Shown: in pieces, positions 1-15,665 of the stretch
Position numbering within the stretch: the stretch's first letter is position 1
Layout: every line of letters starts with the position of its first letter
Notes under the pieces: model-generated
What the model was told of the DNA's origin: nothing
The model's input: only the letters and a program-made list of their open reading frames with translations
Database searches by the model: none
Source of the DNA: Halichondria panicea
Taxonomy: Eukaryota > Porifera > Demospongiae > Suberitida > Halichondriidae
Assembly: GCF_963675165.1 (NCBI RefSeq)
Contig: NC_087383.1
Span: 682,001-746,000, forward strand
DNA: 64,000 bases
Direction: 5' to 3'
Translations under genes and position numbers: made by a program

Positions 1-223
1 CCGAGGGGAAGGGGTGTGGCTTAGGGTGTGGTTAATATGTCTGCATGGAATAATGGAAGAGGATCTCGGTTGGTTTCTAGAGACTAATGATTTAGATATA
101 GACTCTACATACAGTACTTCTAAAAGTGTTTTACTTATTAGAAAATCTTCATCTACATGTATAGTGTACGTGTAGCTAAGTAACCCACTCCACACACCCC
201 GCCCACACACACCCACGGCACAG

Positions 224-1093
224 GTCCACCTAGATGTGTCCAACAACAAGCTGGTAGACCTCCCTATAGGAGCGGCCAACACGTGGATGCAATCACTGGA
301 GCGTCTCTTCCTATCGCACAACAATATTACCGAGATCTCTCGAAACATCACTGAGTTGACCCACTTAACCATATTGGATCTATCTCATAACCGCATCACC
401 AGCCTCCCGCCTACCGCTAACTGGAGTGGAAACAGGCTGAACAAGTTGCACCTGTCGTTCAACCAGTTAACGCTTTTGACTCACCTTCCGTCAAAAGAGG
501 AGGCGGCTGCCAAAGAGAAAGGAGATCAACAACATAAGTATGCCAGTGTGTCAATGATTGGGTGAGAGTGGCTTTGTGTTTGTATATTTCTGTATATTTC
601 TGTATAATTAGAGTTTCCTCGTGTGTTTACGAGAAGAGGTGCAAAATAGATTATAGTTGCTTAATTTGCTGTGTGTGTGTTTGTATACCGTATAGCGCGA
701 AATTGTTGTTTCAGGCACTTATATTTCGTGGAATGGCCTCTAAAAGCATTTCGTTGCACAATGTTTGTGTGTGGATTGACTGCTTACCGAAAGTCACGCC
801 TTTAATCTTTGCATGATAGCAGATAATTAAAAAACAATTGTGTAGGAAGGATTGCTAACCCACGAAAACAGCGAAAATTAAGCCCCTCGAAAATTTCGCG
901 CTATACAGTATTTCTGTATAATTAGAGTTTCCTCATGTGTTTACGAGAGTAGAGGTGTATAATAGATTGTACTTACTTAATTTTCTGTGTGTGTTGTTTT
1001 GCTGTGTTTTGATTAGTGATTAAACGCAGTGTTTTGTTGATGTTGTTTCTGAAACTACTACACAGGCACACTCACACCTATCCCACACATACG

Positions 1094-1130
<37 letters not shown>

Positions 1131-4100
1131 CAATCTCTTGGGGAATGTCAACAAGAGAGGTGCTAAGAAGACCAAGACTGGTGCCGTCCCCACAAGCCCC
1201 TCCCCTTTAGACCACCCCCTGGAGGAAACCCCTCGTGAACTGCCCACTGAGCTGTGGCGGTCATGTCTCCAATCCTTGTACCTACAAGGCAACCAGATCA
1301 AGTTCCTGCCAGATTATGTGGGGGAACTGGACAGTCTAGCGAGGATTGACATCAGCGGGTAAGGGTCAACACTGTAATATGTGAGATTCACCCGTTAACT
1401 TTATAGCTATATAATTATTATCAAGGATGTGCCCACACTGGTCGGTGGTGGTGGTTGGTACTAACCACCTGTACATGTGAACAAAATAGGCATAGTTTTT
1501 TACCATAATTATTTTTAGGCAAATTTGTGTGAGTTGATTGCATGACGATTGGAAAAGGCACTTGAATACGATTTGTCTCAGTACCAAAATAATTTAAATG
1601 GGCACATTTTTGGATTTTGTTCATTAATTTGCAGAATTAAGTTTCTTGTGTATAATTATTAGTTACTAAACCACACCCCCTGCGCAGGAACCCTGATATC
1701 ACCAACCTCCCCCTCACACTTGGTCGACTACGCAACTGCTGGGAGCTCACTCTCAACGGACTCACAGTGAGAAATGTCCCACAGCATCTGTTGCCGGGCG
1801 TTGCTAGGGGAGGCTCCACCAAGCACCTGCTGGCGTACTTGAGAGCTCAGCTGCGACACTGTGTACCCTACAACAGGATGAAGCTGATGGCAGTCGGATT
1901 ACAGGTACGAAATGACTGCTCTAATTGACCTGCAGTTTGTAGAATAGTGTGTACACTGACATACTTGTAGTAGTGGACTTGACATGTTGTTTTCTGTAAT
2001 AATGTCATTTCTAGTGACGTGAAAAGGTTGTAAGTGCAGTACAGCACGCTAGTCGCTTATTAAGTATAATTATAGACGTTTCACAACTTCCTATTTTAAA
2101 TTATCCCTTTCCTCTGCTATTAGGGACGTGGCAAGACGACTCTGTTATCTGTGCTGCGTAACCCTGGCTCGTCACTGCCCCCCAACGTGTCTACAGTGGG
2201 TGTGGTCGTATCTGACTGGGTAGTCCACCCTCCAGCCATACTCAAGAAAAGGGGAGGGGCAGGGGCGCCACAAAGGGTATGGATAAATATTATACAGTAG
2301 TTTATGTACGTTCATACCACTACCATATTACTAGAATATTTTGTGTGAAAAAGCCAAATCAGCAGAAAATTTTACCCTTTGCGATCTAACTATTGCGTTT
2401 TGGGATGGATCGTGTGTCACTACATGGACTACTAATCTATGATTTTATTTATGCGAATTGATCAAAGTTCGCTAGTAATATGGTAGAATAATTATAATTA
2501 TACTGTCTTGTATGTACGTTCTGCGTGTAGAATGATACCTATCACACACACACGCCCACACACACACCCCACACACACACAGCACAACACGGAGGTGGTG
2601 TTCAGTATCTGGGACATGGCAGGACAGGAGGTGTACTACGCCACGCATCAATGCTTCCTCTCCAGGAACACCCTCTACCTCGTGGTGTGGAACATGGAGG
2701 AGGGTGACGGGGGAATAGACTATCTGCGCCCGTGGTTACTCAACATTCAGGTGGGCGTGGTGTGTGAGATGTGAGGGGGCGGTTGGTGTGGAGTGTAGCA
2801 TTATATACGTACATAGATGAATGGCCCAACCTAATACCTTATAGCGGGTAATTTTCGTTGGTGCAAATTTTCGTATGAATTGCCTAATTAATATTAAATA
2901 TTCGTACAGCTCAGGATAGTGACGTTGAACCTATTGAGGTAGAATGATTTCTTAGTTTTAATTTTTGTATGATGCTCTACAATACGAAGATTTCCATCAT
3001 ACGAAAATAACTTGCTATACGGTAGTCCTGTATATAGTACCCCACCCTCGTACATATTACACTCATTGCTATGACAACCCGTTCTCGTACAGGCCCGAGC
3101 CCCCAAGTCCCCCATCATCATAGTAGGCACTCACTTGGACAAGATACCTCCACAGAAGATAAAACCTCTTGTCGACCATTTCAAAGCTCGTATAAAAGAA
3201 TTGTACGCCAAGTCTGGCTACCCACACCTCTCTGGTATCATGATGGTATCTTGTGTGACGCAAGAAGGGATCAAGGATTTGATCGAGCGGATTCATTACG
3301 CTGCCGTTAATGCGGTGGACCCTGACACTAGGGACCACATTATCGGAGCACAGGTACGTGTGGGGTTAACTGATGTACTGTACAATTTAATGAGACTCTC
3401 TCAGCTGCCATAGCTTGAATTGCGTGGATCCAATCTCAACGATTTTATGATTTTCTGAAAGCTTAGAAAAATACCTTTCAAATGGTGTTATCAAAGTTTA
3501 TATTTGAAAGATAAAAGCATTTGCCAATTTGGCCGTAATAGCCCATGGTCCAAGGGCGAAAAATGACAAATTATGGCCCCAAACAAATATTAAATTTAAC
3601 ACATCATTTGAAAGGTATTTTTCTAAGCTTTCAGAAAATCTAAAAAAAATTGACATTGGATCAACGGTACTGAAGTTATGGCTGTTGAAAGATGTTCGAC
3701 TACCCCTCCGTTTAATCAATGGTTCAGGGACTCTCTCAGTTACCATAACTTAAATTCTGTAGATCCAATTTCAATGATTTTCTCATTTTCTGGAAGCTTA
3801 GAAAGAGACCTTTCAAATTATGTTATCAAATTTTATATTTGAGAGATAAAAGTATTTGCTAATTTGGACAGACCATGGTCCAAGGGCAAAAAATGACAAA
3901 TTATGACCCCAACCAAAATTAGGATTAAAACACATCATTTGAAAGGTATCTATCTAAGCTTTCAAATTGGATCAATAATACTCAAGTTATGGTTGTTGAA
4001 AGATACCTGTACATTATGTATCAATTGTTTAGTCATTGTAATTGCATACTGATCTACCCCCCCACCCAGGTACCCTCCAGTTATGTGGCTCTGCAGAAGA

Positions 4101-7100
4101 AGGTGTCAGAGGAAGTGATGCGTTGTAGGGAGAAGGAGACTCCGCCCGTCCTCAATCAGATGGAATTCTCTCGTTTGGCACAGACCCTTGATGACAATGA
4201 CATCACAGATCCTGAGGAGCTGTCACTAGGTGAGAATCAGCACGCATTAAGCTCTTTTATTAGTACATACACAGCTGTGTCCGTTGTAGGCAACGGATTG
4301 CCTGAAAGTTGCCTCTACATAGATGGCCCCACCCATTTGTTAGATCCACTCTTTAAGTTATGTAACTTCTGTTCAGTGGGCCACACTCCTGGTGTATGAT
4401 GGTGGCCTTATAAGAGTGTGACTCTTCTCCATTCTCTCTCTCTCTCTCTCTTCCCATTTCAATATATATCTCCTCCCCATACAGCTGCCCAGTTTCTCCA
4501 TGACAACGGGATCTTGCTCCACTACAACGACCACCTACGTGGCCTCAACAACCTCTACTTCATTGACCCAGTCTGGTTGGCTGACATGTTAGCGGAGGTG
4601 GTCACAGTGCCAGAGAAGAACTCATTCGTGCATAACGGGATGCTCAAGGAGTCCAACGTGGCGTTTATTTTCAGAGACAATCGTCGCTTCCCGAGCAAGT
4701 TCTTTCATCAGTATCTGCAGCTGCTAGAAGTGCGTGGGCGTGTGTGTGTGTAAAACATGTGGAGGGAATGCATTTGATATAGCTGTATATAAATTTTCTT
4801 TTTTTTATTAATTTTTTTCTCTCTCTCACAGCGTTTTGAGATAGCCCTGTCGCTAGGCAACGGTCTCCGGCTCGTACCATCTATGCTCCCCTTCCAACGA
4901 CCTATCATGAACTTTGTTGGCCCCGAGCCAATCGCACACGAACCCACGGACAGAGAGGATGGGGGTGTGGCCAGAAGTGAGCTGAACACATCTCAAGCGG
5001 GTACACCCACGGACCCTCAAATAGTAGACGGGATAGAGGTCATATCTCACCCCCTCACTTGTATACGACGTCGTTACAAAATGGCGTACGTACCGAGTGG
5101 ATTTTGGAGTCGTCTCATCTCTCGGTTGATGATTAACCTCAAGAGGTCTGGCCTTGTTGAGAGTGAGGGGGCGGGTAAACACACACCCTCAATGACGTAC
5201 TGGAGACGAGGGATACTAGTCGGGCACTCAACCGGCAAGTTTCTAGTGGAGGCCATTCAAGCGGGGACCAAGAAAGGTGGGTGGGTTGAATCAGCTGGTT
5301 TGTTCGTAGGGGGAGTGTCTCCAAGGCTATACATGTGGTATGGTTTTGTGTACCGTACGTATAGTGGATATTTCGAGGGTATAAACTGTCGTGAAAATGC
5401 TTTTAGAAATGTTTTCGCAGATTTAATTTTTGCGGAATAGCAGCCTTTATGTATGCAATATTAAATGTGTGTATATAAATGTTAGCGGTATATGCTCAAT
5501 CAGCCAAAACCACTAACAATTATTTATGTCCTCCCGCTATACGGTAATAGCAATTAAATGGTGCATGTTTTAACGAGGTGTCTTGTAGTCCTGTTACAAG
5601 TTCATTTCCAACGACATGCTAGACAAAGTGCTGGACTACTTGGCAGTACAGGTGGTTGCCATAGTACCTGAACATTGTCACTCTACCAGCATACATGTGC
5701 CTATAGTTACGTGTACTAGAGAGAGAGATATTCGTACAACCCCCCTGCAGAGATGTGGGGGTAGCTAATATATTGTGTGAATGTCAACCCCCCTGCAGCG
5801 ATGTGGGGGTAGCTAATATATTGTGTGAATGTCAACCCCCCTGCAGCGATGTGGGGGTAGCTAATATATTGTGTGAATGTCAACCCCCTGCAGAGATGTG
5901 GGGGTAGCTAATATATTGTGTGAATGTCAACCCCCCTGCAGCGATGTGGGGGTAGCTAATATATTGTGTGAATGTCAACCCCCCCTGCAGAGATGTTGGG
6001 AGTGGGGGTTGGTGACACCATGCTCAAGGAGAAGCTAGCCTATGTTGGTGATGGAGTGGACACACTGTCTGACGGACCACAGGGCGTTGATATCAGGGTG
6101 TGGTCTAATAACGGAGACTTCTCAGCCATGGGCTATGTTGTGGATCAGCTAGACTCTCTTGTTGATGAGTGGTTCCCTGGTGCGTGCCCAGTAGCATACA
6201 AAATGGCCGCCTCTATTTAGGAGTGTGATATTAGATGGAATTTTGCATGTTTTTTAAAGCAATTTTTTGCTACCTTAATAACTAGCAGCTGTTCCTGTTT
6301 CTGTTAGTATTGTTGGGTTGTGCATGTTTTAACGAGGTGTCTTGTAGTCCTGTTACAAGTTCATTTCCAACGACATGCTAGACAAAGTGCTGGACTACTT
6401 GGCAGTACAGGTGGTTGCCATAGTACCTGAACATTGTCACTCTACCAGCATACATGTGCCTAGTTACGATAACGTTAAGAGTTAGTTTACAACAGCTAGC
6501 TACGTTCACACATACAGTCACTCCTCTGTGTGTGTGTGTGTGCGTGTGCAGGTCTTAACGATATAGATGTGGAGGGAGAGTGGCTAGTTCAACGACAAGT
6601 CCTCTGGCCCATCCCCTCCAAGCTCACAGCTAAGGGAGGGGAGAGCACTCAGCGAGGCAGCTGGGACCTCGCCATTCCTGAGGAAGAGAGAGAAGAGGTA
6701 ACATTGTAACATTGATGCTATCAGGCCTGTTTTCACAGCTAGCTTTCAGAGGCCATTACTTGTGTTAGGAAGGTCCGATTTCAAAACTAATTAAAAAATG
6801 TAGTAGGTGTTTCGTAGTGCTACAATACATAGTCAGACAAGTTTTGTTTTGTGGGCAGTGATGATCATTTTGTAATGACAGCTGTCAACCCTAACACCAC
6901 ACCTTTGTGTGGGCGGTTGCGGCACTATGATAGTTTCTACTTGATCTGAGCCTATCACTCTAATTATAATAATAATAATAATAATAATAATCTCAATGCT
7001 ATTAATATGTCCCCTCCCACTCATAACACAGATGTACATCTTCCCTCTTGAGAAGTGTGCGGCTGAGGCGTTGCTAGGGGATAACATTTTGTGTCCAGAA

Positions 7101-10100
7101 TACAAAGTTCGAGTTCCTCTTAGTTACCTCGTACCTGACCTCCTCCTCACTGACTTGCCCTCTGAACTCACTGTTGACCTTTCAGTGTTTGAGTTCAACC
7201 CAAGGGTACGTACAATGTATATAGTCATGACGTTATTCCTTATAATTACTGTAGGAGCACCCCCCCTATAATTTGCTGTGTCTGCAAATAATTTATAATA
7301 CGTGTAGTACATATAATTATACCGAATTTGTGTCAACATGTTGTTCCTTTTAACTTAACACACTAAATGCCCACCCCCACACTCACACTACCCACCCACA
7401 CACACACACACACACATGTGTAGGACCCGGCCACTCGTCTGGGCCAGGGTGGTGCGGGGGCGGTGTATAAAGGACGTTATCGTCACGAGGCGGTGGCTGT
7501 TAAAGAATTCCTCACAGCCTCACAAGCCGAGCACCCGGAGGACACGGCTCAACGATCACTACAAGATGATGAGCTCATCTCTCAGGGGGAGGCACTATTC
7601 CTCTTCAGGTGAGCTTACCGTATGTGTACATATACTGTACAAGTATTGCTACAATAATCAGAATCTTGGAACAACCATAACTTAAGTTCTAAACTCTTTC
7701 AGGTGACATGTTCAAATCATTTTGATACATAATTATAAGCATGGTGCTAGTTAAGTTATGCTGTTCAATCATATATACCTGCTGATATCTGCATCTATTG
7801 CAAGTACCTGTACTTATGTCCCCCCCTTGTAATACAGGGACCTCCGCCAGGAAGTGACAGTTCTCGCCACCCTCAACCATCCCAACATAGTGTCCCTGCT
7901 GGCTGTCTCTGTTAGACCCATGTGCATGGTCATAGAGCTAGCCCCAATGGGTTCTCTCTTTGGCATCCTCGACAAGAAATTGGAGCTGATCAAGGCAGCT
8001 CAGGCCGAGGCTGGGCGTGTCATTGTGAGACTGCCTGGGGGCATTCTGGGTCATGAGATATCAGCCAAAGCCGCTCTCCAGGTGGGTGTGGCTTAACCGT
8101 ACAACGGCATACAGAACCAAACAGAAGGGCAATTAACACATACAAGCAGTTATTGATTGCTTATACTTCTTTCTCTCCCTAGGTTGCCATGGCTCTCCGC
8201 TACCTCCACAAGCACGGGATTGTGTACCGTGATCTCAAGTCTGATAATGTTCTTGCCTGGTCACTGGATCCCAACGATGCCGTCAATTTCAAACTTGCTG
8301 ACTATGGCATTTCCAGATTTGCCAACCCAGGTGGGGTCAAAGGTGAAGAGGGAACTCCCGGGTACTTGGCACCAGAAGCCATACGTAGGAGAGGGGAGGA
8401 TCAAGCTTTTGATGAGAAGGTGGGCTTTAACAAATTTTTTATCAAATTTATGTTTTCTTCGAAATTAGTAAGAATTTCATGTAATTAGAACCCTCCCACC
8501 CCCCTCAGGTGGATATCTTCTCATATGGTATGCTCCTGTTTGAACTGCTGACTGGGCAACGACCGTTTGAGAACCTCACTACAACCCAGGAGTTGAACAA
8601 GGCTGTGCTGTCTGGGGACCGCCCTTCTCTGTACGAGGGAAATGCTGAGCCAGCGTTCCCGGGAATGGTGGACCTCATGTTTGATGCTTGGAAACAGTCG
8701 TCAGCTGAGAGGCCAACAGCTGATGAGGTGGGGAACACTGTAGTAGTAGTAGACTAGTAGTAGTAGTATTAGTTTATGGTAGCCTAGAAATTGTGAATGT
8801 TAAAGTTAACTTCGAAAACAGGCCCATTTCAGGCACGCTTTTCCTCAGGGCCTATAGCTAGAGCATCAATGTGATTGGCTAGTAGCTTTGGGTTTGTGCA
8901 TGTTTTAACGAGGTGTCTTGTAGTCCTGTTACAAGTTCATTTCCAACGACATGCTAGACAAAGTGCTGGACTACTTGGCAGTACAGGTGGTTGCCATAGT
9001 ACCTGAACACTGTCACTCTACCAGCATACATAATGAAACTTCAGTATATAATTATGTTAATACATAATTTATGCATTTTAGGTATAATTGAAATAATGGC
9101 CCCCCCACACACACACTCACACACGTACTTCACAGATTGTGTCTCGGACATGTGAGCCTGGCTTCCTCTGTCGCCAGCACACCATCATTCGCACGAGGGA
9201 ACACAACCTGCAGAAGATTGACACCATGTACGCTCGTCCTGTACTAGCCGACGACATTGAGTCAGGTAAGAAGAGCTATGCCCTATGGACGTGGGCCAAG
9301 CAAGACATCGAGAGAAACTTCTCAATCATTGACGTACGGAGGGGTGTGTTCAATCTGCCAGAGAAGCCAGCTGCCGGGGGGAGAGTCTACGCCATGACTG
9401 CCACCGGAGAAGTGGAAAAGAGGATCTGGATTGGCACAGCTGTAAGTTATTAAGACATTGCAAAAGTGCAGTTACCATTGTTACGTACATAATCTAGAGT
9501 TATCATAATTATACAAATATTCTATTATATATATTTTATATATATTTTGCTACCCCCCCCCTCTCTACAGGATTTTGGCATCCAAGTGTACGGCTACAAG
9601 AACGTAGGAGACCCTCAGTGCCTGTGGACGTTCCACATGAAGGACTCGGTACTGGCTCTGGACACGGAGGTGGAGGGGGGCAGGGTAAGTCTCAGTCTCA
9701 CAAGCAATTTCAATCAACAATTTCAGCCATTATGGTAGCTATCTTTGGGAGCCTGTAATTTGTGTTCAATTTCAACAATAATTGATGCATATTGGATTTG
9801 TAATTCGTGTGCTCTAAAGAATATATGTTCACCCCACTTTCTCAGGTGAAGAGAGTGTTTGCCTCGCTGGCCAATGGCACGCTGTGTGTATTTGCACGCA
9901 AGAGTATACAGCTGCAGCAAGACTCGATCGGAGACGCCAAGTTTATCCCCGAGGCGTGTACAATCAGCTGTGACGAGGACCAGTTCCGTAAAGAAGCTGA
10001 GGATTGGGCTGACCCTTTAATATTGCTCTTAGGATTGAACCAGAAGGCGGCCAAGTGTATGGTGTTTGTTGGGCAGAGTCATCTCTGGTGTGGGTGTGGC

Positions 10101-11036
10101 AATACTATCACCGTTGTCGATATTGTACAAATGAAAGTTGTCAAGAGCATCCCCGTGTTTGTGAAGAGAATGGCGCTTGTGAACGAGCTCGTTTCCAATG
10201 ACAACAAAGTGTGGGGTGTGGGTAGACAGCTGTCGTGTGTTATGGAATGGGACGCTAATAACTTTAGCCTCCTCCATGTATTCAACTGCAATGTTATCGA
10301 CCCAACTGATGACATCATTAAATCAGACCCAAAAGGGATCGACGATCTGTACGATAGCGAATCGAGACCGATAGCTGCCTCTATTTCAGACCCCCTAGGG
10401 GAAGACGTAAGATCTCAGCTGTCCGGTTTCACAGTTGAGAACGACCCCAAGAGAGCAGCCCCCTTCTCGCAAAGCTCCACTCGTCGTACTCTTCGTGGAT
10501 TACATCCTCGGAAACGTGTTGCTAATATGAAAGACGACGTTGATGTCGGCCGGGCAAGGGTGACCACCACTCGTGATTTAGTTCGTCACCGGCAGAAGGG
10601 TTCCACTCGAACGACCTCGCTACTGATAATGGGTAAGACACTCTGGGTTGCTCGGGGGATGGGAGATATACTCGTAATCGATATCGGAGGTAGTAGTGAA
10701 TCGCACGGTCGAGTGCTCACGCGTTTAGCCACCGAAGGATGTGAGAAATTTGGCAACAAGTCGTATCACAAGCTCGTCTGCGTTGCCGGGGAGTACGTTG
10801 TTAGCTCTCAATGGTTGGAGCCGGTGGATATTCGATCGAGGGCGACTACGGTGAGTGGCGGCACACCCTCCACTCCAGACATGCCTCGAGCAGCTGTCAG
10901 TCGTCAACGGGAGGACACGGAAACGATGGCACATCAGGCGATCACAATCTGGAGTGCCTGGAATCACGATGGTATCAGTCAGTTTATGAGCCGGAGATCC
11001 GCTCAACTAATGCAAGAAATGGACGATGCTGTTTAA
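224..11036 (+). CDS. LRRK-like Roco protein kinase (3' part of gene, 5' end outside window)
   Basis: Nineteen exons fit in one frame: 224-537, 1131-1358, 1688-1904, 2124-2276, 2583-2750, 3093-3353, 4070-4229, 4485-4729, 4832-5276, 5991-6179, 6552-6697, 7032-7205, 7424-7608, 7838-8081, 8183-8419, 8509-8727, 9136-9441, 9571-9684, 9846-11036. They give 1731 residues (numbering from 224). Residues 1-250 are leucine-rich repeats. A Roc GTPase follows, with P-loop GLQGRGKTT, switch II DMAGQE and base-recognition THLDK. The COR domain (about 448-900) contains [13 protein letters not shown]. The kinase (about 901-1195) has glycine loop [12 protein letters not shown], lysine AVKEF, catalytic YRDLKSDN, a DYG in place of DFG, and APE. 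The C-terminal ~530 residues look like a degenerate WD40 propeller. This is the LRRK order of domains, and the DYG is shared with LRRK2. The family couples GTP binding to Ser/Thr phosphorylation in cytosolic signalling. N-terminal domains lie upstream; LRRK1 versus LRRK2 orthology cannot be decided here. Confidence 0.93.
686..910. mobile_element. MITE-like element, TACCGTATAGCGCG family
   Basis: Ends read taccgtatagcgcgaaat and, inverted, aaatttcgcgctatacagta, about 225 bp apart inside the first visible Roco intron. A close relative with the same internal sequence lies at 58173-58402. There is no coding capacity, so it is a non-autonomous inverted-repeat element. Confidence 0.7.
1089..1130 (+). 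repeat. (CA)n microsatellite forming a 3' splice site
   Basis: A pure CA run ends directly in the AG acceptor of the Roco exon starting at 1131. The same arrangement recurs before the exons at 2583 and 7424 of this gene. Confidence 0.8.
2321..2485. mobile_element. MITE-like element, TACCATATTACTAG family
   Basis: The 5' end taccatattactagaata is mirrored by ctagtaatatggta at the 3' end, 165 bp in total, in the Roco intron between exons 4 and 5. A related element is at 49564-49767 (shared internal phrase gatctaactattgcgtt). Confidence 0.65.
2835..3024. mobile_element. MITE-like element, TAGCGGGTAATTTTCG family
   Basis: Inverted ends: tatagcgggtaattttcgt on the left and acgaaaataacttgctatac on the right, in a Roco intron. 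Relatives occur at 5351-5546, 11543-11720 and 18810-18971. Confidence 0.65.
3411..3995. repeat. Dispersed tandem repeat (TTTGAAAGG family), intronic
   Basis: Two diverged copies of a roughly 300 bp unit contain catttgaaaggtatttttct, aagctttcagaaaatc and ccatggtccaagggc. The same family forms a larger array at 18975-19935 and a copy at 46120-46475, always inside introns. The short open frames here are not conserved between copies, so I read it as non-coding. Confidence 0.75.
5351..5546. mobile_element. MITE-like element, TAGCGGG family
   Basis: It begins taccgtacgtatagtggata and ends cctcccgctatacggta, with an internal cgagggtataaa as in the 11543-11720 element. It lies in the Roco intron that also holds a cassette copy and the acceptor minisatellite. 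Confidence 0.6.
5562..5711 (+). repeat. 140-bp splice-flanked cassette, copy 1
   Basis: First of three nearly identical copies (others at 6321-6468 and 8897-9030), all in Roco introns. Within it 5589-5651 (63 nt) sits between a TAG acceptor-like end and a GTGG donor-like start. It is open in two of three phases, one reading [16 protein letters not shown]. Skipping it joins exons 5276 and 5991 in phase, so it is not needed for the Roco frame. Confidence 0.85.
5739..5978 (+). repeat. 48-bp minisatellite of a 3' splice site (5 units)
   Basis: Five tandem 48-bp units each contain ccccctgcag followed by agatgtgggggtag or cgatgtgggggtag. The unit is a copy of the genuine acceptor and first codons of the Roco exon at 5991. 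Six candidate acceptors therefore stand 48 nt (16 codons) apart. An exon begun at an upstream copy would read E/A-M-W-G then TAG. Confidence 0.9.
6321..6468 (+). repeat. 140-bp splice-flanked cassette, copy 2
   Basis: Nearly identical to copy 1, with the 63-nt splice-flanked core at 6348-6410. It lies in the next Roco intron (phase 1, between exons ending 6179 and starting 6552). Confidence 0.85.
6722..6835. repeat. Dispersed intronic repeat (CAGGCCTGTTTTCA family)
   Basis: The segment caggcctgttttca through gtgctacaatacata resembles 12407-12520 (cyclin Q intron) and partly 45450-45540 (DDX49 intron). No coding potential is seen. Confidence 0.55.
8897..9030 (+). repeat. 140-bp splice-flanked cassette, copy 3
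   Basis: Same sequence as copies 1 and 2, with the core at 8924-8986, in a phase-0 intron of the Roco kinase region. Copies 1 and 2 sit in phase-1 introns, so the core could not be translated the same way in all three places. Confidence 0.85.

Positions 11037-13172: not shown

Positions 13173-15665
<2,493 letters not shown>

Follow-up and report, generated by a model that had tools for sequence, protein, structure and literature searches.

The window analyzed here (64,000 nucleotides, C7:682001-746000 in a 131-Mb assembly of 39 contigs) contains a minisatellite in which the end of an intron and the first bases of the following exon are tandemly repeated, and this array is a mirage of the kind known from amphioxus, ordinary as a single locus. 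In the interpretation that we consider likely, the intron-exon boundary was duplicated in tandem, exon definition picks the last of the resulting acceptor modules, and the upstream decoys are silent or leak into decay; the array probably represents noise that is tolerated, and not a dedicated switch. For the genome as a whole, the evidence leaves about even chances for a broader proposal, namely that duplication of the 3' splice-site module is a recurrent and fast-turning class of minisatellite that has arisen independently in many genes, and that the spliceosome can be relied on to select the final one, even where as many as 30 or more nearly identical acceptors stand in a row.

The gene that carries the array, at 176-11036, is an LRRK-like ROCO kinase gene in which Pfam matches, taken exon by exon, identify LRR, Roc, COR-A, COR-B, and kinase domains; its COR region aligns to human LRRK2 and LRRK1. 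The features around the array intron are as follows.

4832..5276, + strand: exon before the array intron, encoding the end of COR-A and the first part of COR-B, with acceptor tctctctcacag at 4831; supported by COR-B and LRRK2/LRRK1 matches.
5277..5990, + strand: phase-1 intron of 714 bp with donor AAG/GTGGGT; supported by COR-B donor scoring and by the joined protein, which matches human LRRK1/LRRK2 COR on either side.
5991..6179, + strand: coding exon for the end of COR-B (EMLGVGVGD...); its frame is kept solely via 5990 or a cryptic acceptor at 6002, and it includes the LRRK2 match VVDHIDSLMEEWFPG.

The COR-B domain is split by the intron at 5277-5990. When four candidate phase-1 donors were scored against COR-B, the donor at 5277 gave the highest score (40.3 bits versus 38.6, 36.8, and 36.6), and the protein joined through it aligns with LRRK2 on both sides of the junction, as far as VVDHIDSLMEEWFPG. 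Only 2 of the 28 AG dinucleotides in 5600-6019, those at 5990 and 6002, leave the exon open. Frame and homology together point to 5990 as the probable main acceptor. The array itself consists of the following elements.

5737..6000, + strand: minisatellite across the intron-exon boundary, period 48, 5.5 copies, 96% match (TRF).
5740..5750, + strand: first decoy acceptor, CCCCCCTGCAG, with no YTNAY found 13-60 nt upstream in the motif scan.
5751..5798, + strand: unit 1, 48 bp, starting AGATG.
5765..5769, + strand: CTAAT of unit 1, a branch-point-like motif (motif scan) and putative branch site.
5799..5846, + strand: unit 2, 48 bp, starting CGATG.
5847..5893, + strand: unit 3, 47 bp, with C5, starting CGATG.
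5894..5941, + strand: unit 4, 48 bp, starting AGATG.
5942..5990, + strand: unit 5, 49 bp, with C7, starting CGATG and ending in the coding exon's acceptor.

The original prediction, made from this DNA alone, that the intron end and exon start stand in tandem copies with six acceptors is borne out, TRF placing the repeat at 5737-6000. The acceptors, six in all and of the form C5-7TGCAG, have their last bases at 5750, 5798, 5846, 5893, 5941, and 5990, which gives units of 48, 48, 47, 48, and 49 bp; these vary solely in the base they start with (A, C, C, A, C) and in how long the C-run is (5-7). The portion of exon contained in a unit is short: AGATGT[T/G]GGG, 10 nt with one mismatch, or 6 nt in the units that start with C. 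The motif scan finds a single YTNAY motif per unit, the CTAAT, which recurs at 5813, 5861, 5908, and 5956 and is located 29-31 nt upstream of acceptors 2-6; the unit is therefore an entire 3' splice-site module together with about 10 nt of exon. A weak donor-like sequence, GGGG/GTAGCT, is also present in every unit. The tandem repeats span the intron-exon boundary and the units carry a splice signal, the structural features of a mirage. The unit belongs to a single locus, with five exact matches in the genome, all at the window array; no further copy was found elsewhere in the genome with up to one mismatch allowed, and none in viral contigs. The only paralogue found for the exon, a weak match on C17 (41% over 32 amino acids), has no array in the 800 bases around it.

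These features are most readily read as a slippage-born minisatellite that formed over the boundary; the tandemly duplicated segment would have started about 38 nt upstream of the acceptor and reached about 10 nt into the exon, taking in the branch-like CTAAT, the C-run, CTGCAG, and the exon start. The result would be an intron that includes the array and terminates in six 3' splice sites that are nearly identical, and in which the last acceptor, 5990, bordering the coding exon, is mostly used and the upstream acceptors are mostly silent. Exon definition involving the donor at 6180 would probably direct the choice to 5990, the last unit having its own CTAAT 31 nt upstream. The decoy and true acceptors are almost alike in sequence, and no local feature was found that accounts for the last one winning. 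Masking of the decoys by RNA structure was considered and rejected: in the predicted fold (z = -1.85), the C-run pairs with the next G-run downstream at all six acceptors, and the C-tract is paired at 0.74-0.95 at each of them, the true one included, so that predicted structure does not explain acceptor choice.

Splicing from the donor at 5277 to any of the acceptors 5750-5941 would give GAG or GCG, ATG, TGG, GGG, and TAG (E/A-M-W-G-stop), and a premature stop is thus introduced after four codons by all five decoys. With this donor in phase 1, the expectation that TAG comes after three codons at the upstream sites is correct (the junction codon, ATG TGG GGG, and then TAG). It should be noted that, of the reading frames of the unit, two out of three are interrupted by stops, and the early stop is therefore unremarkable in itself and no sign of design. 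Any use of the decoys would yield transcripts that stop within four codons and are likely to be decay-prone, which would represent a fitness cost and not control.

Minisatellites are abundant in this genome (about 10 arrays with period 20-100 and at least 4 copies in 190 kb sampled), and one of those sampled (L029), met by chance, is a further acceptor array immediately 5' of an exon. Genome-wide, three successive CCCCYRCAG motifs at a spacing of 20-50 nt gave 444 matches versus 61 for the reversed pattern; when the dominant family, the EFR3-like unit, is left out, there are 71 matches, at 20 loci, versus 3 reversed, the loci being the better unit because these counts include overlapping matches. 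The search with CCCCTRCAG gave nine loci and the control with AG changed to TG gave 11; the pattern sees C-run acceptors at 20-50 nt spacing only, so that all of these counts are lower bounds. Flanking sequence was inspected for 26 AG arrays and for all 11 TG arrays, the window array making 27 and the EFR3-like cluster being set aside. An exon starts directly at the last acceptor in 16 of the 27 C-run AG arrays (window counted), with calls outside the window based on visual inspection of open frames, donors, and domain matches, as compared with 0 of 11 AG-ablated controls, in which Pfam matched none of the open frames. In 16 of 16 cases, it is the last acceptor that the exon follows. Domain or structure-database (PDB) support is available for nine of these exons (LRRK, EGF twice, LRR, AP-3 beta, C1, DNA ligase 1, ankyrin, and F5/8), the two EGF genes being near-copies of which the Pfam scan covered the first; the other seven were judged by eye from an open frame, accompanied in most cases by a donor. 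In many of the 16 arrays, the start of the unit resembles the start of the exon, with a shared start of 2 to 34 nt. The DNA ligase 1 exon at C17:5670004-5671010 (L065) has at least 20 tandem CCCCCACAG acceptor units upstream, about 41 bp each. Before unrelated exons, stops or frameshifts from array acceptors occur at a chance-like level.

The donor counterpart, three successive AGGTRAGT motifs genome-wide, shows no excess (24 matches versus 43 reversed). Arrays of a donor-like unit, AGGTGAGT, are present at C11:869538, C15:166993, and C13:1688678 and are possible donor-side counterparts. T-rich acceptor arrays were discarded as mirages, nearly all of the 51 matches belonging to one dispersed AT-rich repeat; the exceptional array at C8:305043 has no exon after it. 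Three further loci that matched the acceptor pattern (C3:5342331, C3:7632192, and L053) read as Pro-rich in-frame coding repeats and were rejected.

Comparisons between paralogues show that the length of acceptor arrays is unstable in this genome. Two recent duplicates of an EGF gene, on C1 (L040/L083) and C11 (L054/L082), have flanks that are about 88% identical and arrays that differ at the same acceptor: three units of about 50 bp (49-52 bp) with up to 34 nt of exon copied on C1, and five 39-bp units with about 21 nt of exon copied on C11. The two arrays may have separate origins, or rebuilding may have followed the gene duplication. A tandem cluster at C7:1.8-3.05 Mb (L029, L047-L050, L084-L088), labelled EFR3-like because the adjacent N-terminal exon has a weak match in Pfam, contains about 37 matches to one exon; in the copies that were checked, the number of acceptors ahead of near-identical exons is 6, 8, 25, or at least 31, and some copies in the cluster contain stops. 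The window array was seen in one haplotype, and paralogous arrays elsewhere in the genome vary in length; since similar arrays differ among close paralogues, as in the EGF pair and the EFR3-like cluster, the copy-number instability that had been proposed for the window array is likely.

Several other repeats lie in or near the array intron.

5561..5703, + strand: 143-bp dispersed element upstream of the array, identical to 6320-6462 (repeat search).
6320..6462, + strand: the other of the two identical copies of the 143-bp element, within the following intron (repeat search).

This element has four copies in the genome, three in introns of the LRRK-like gene (5561-5703, 6320-6462, and 8896-9038) and one on C3 (L003). 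The two identical copies are direct repeats at a distance of 759 bp with the COR-B exon 5991-6179 between them, and recombination between the copies could delete this exon. At about 5400-5550, the array intron also contains the end of a dispersed repeat that is 75-87% alike at dozens of genome sites. On the - strand of the window, at 13863-13920, an array of about 20-bp units (CATAATCACTTCCTGTCCC) immediately precedes the acceptor of a proteasome-ATPase-like exon; its units lack AG, and the pyrimidine tract alone is therefore multiplied. A dispersed AT-rich repeat, TTTTTACAGAGGGTTTTAAAAAAATGATGCTG, forms short arrays, often as opposed pairs some hundred bases apart (for example at C2:6110980, C7:881101, and C13:5283382).

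Among the alternatives to efficient use of the last acceptor, it is conceivable, and in our judgment unlikely, that acceptor choice is noisy, with several decoys in appreciable unregulated use, less LRRK-like mRNA, and an array that constitutes a mildly deleterious load. The signals are near-identical at every site, and where acceptors are duplicated the sites nearer the donor are often favoured, both of which would be expected to promote such use. However, the DNA ligase 1 exon retains an array of at least 20 units and EFR3-like exons retain arrays of at least 30, and the persistence of such long arrays suggests that exon-proximal choice is efficient. The original prediction went further in proposing a tunable switch, in which the share of stop-bearing, decay-prone LRRK-like mRNA would depend on how many upstream acceptors there are and repeat number would vary among individuals. 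The stop after E/A-M-W-G from all five upstream sites, the CTAAT and C-run that decoys 2-5 share with the true site, and the differences in length of related arrays among paralogues are all compatible with this, but arrays of the same type also precede many unrelated exons, that of DNA ligase 1 included, with stops and frameshifts as by chance, and the amphioxus mirages leave splicing normal, with no aberrant mRNA in published tests (PMC3087553, PMC3902484); the switch thus gains no positive support and is very unlikely. That the array is an intermediate in intron creation, its GGGG/GTAGCT sites defining 10-nt micro-exons between 38-nt introns or the tandem duplication seeding a new intron, is highly improbable, since, although the unit holds GT...CTAAT...CAG and mirages have been proposed as a source of new introns (PMC3087553), the donor of the unit is weak, a 38-nt intron is below the 50-60-nt introns read in one other gene (L020), and inclusion of all five micro-exons would add 50 nt and break the frame.

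If the reading of the last acceptor is general, the arrays would provide a natural series in which acceptor number is titrated against the accuracy of splicing. Near-identical acceptors number from 3 to 30 or more in dozens of genes, among which are several near-identical paralogues that differ in repeat number, and the set should be useful for examining how the spliceosome picks one acceptor among copies and whether repeat number costs expression.

Mirages have been described in amphioxus in Adh3, the globins BflGb6 and BflGb9, troponin C, and PGBD5 (PMC3087553, PMC3902484). The unit in BflGb6 comprises an intron's 3' end together with the start of the exon and is present in 6 and 3 copies on two haplotypes, and splicing is regular by RT-PCR (PMC3087553); regular splicing has also been reported for the Adh and troponin C mirages and inferred for PGBD5 (PMC3902484). 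The present array resembles these in being composed of minisatellite-like tandem copies of an intron-exon boundary with its splice signal, but it is located in an LRRK-like gene of another genome and has 48-bp units, compared with 150-160 bp in BflGb6 and 10-72 bp in Adh3. The arrays described here also differ in recurring in many genes and in being known from DNA sequence, whereas splicing in amphioxus was followed by RT-PCR. Human IFI6 represents a donor counterpart, in which downstream units are used and three mRNA forms are produced (PMC4526556); as in that minisatellite, a splice site is present in each repeat unit and adjoins the true one, but the units of IFI6 supply donors and those of the window array acceptors. 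In intron gain by tandem genomic duplication (PMC4974935), extra copies of splice sites likewise result from tandem duplication, whereas here the end of an existing intron has been duplicated. Acceptor mirages, which we have found described only in amphioxus, are therefore extended to another genome, in which they recur in many genes.
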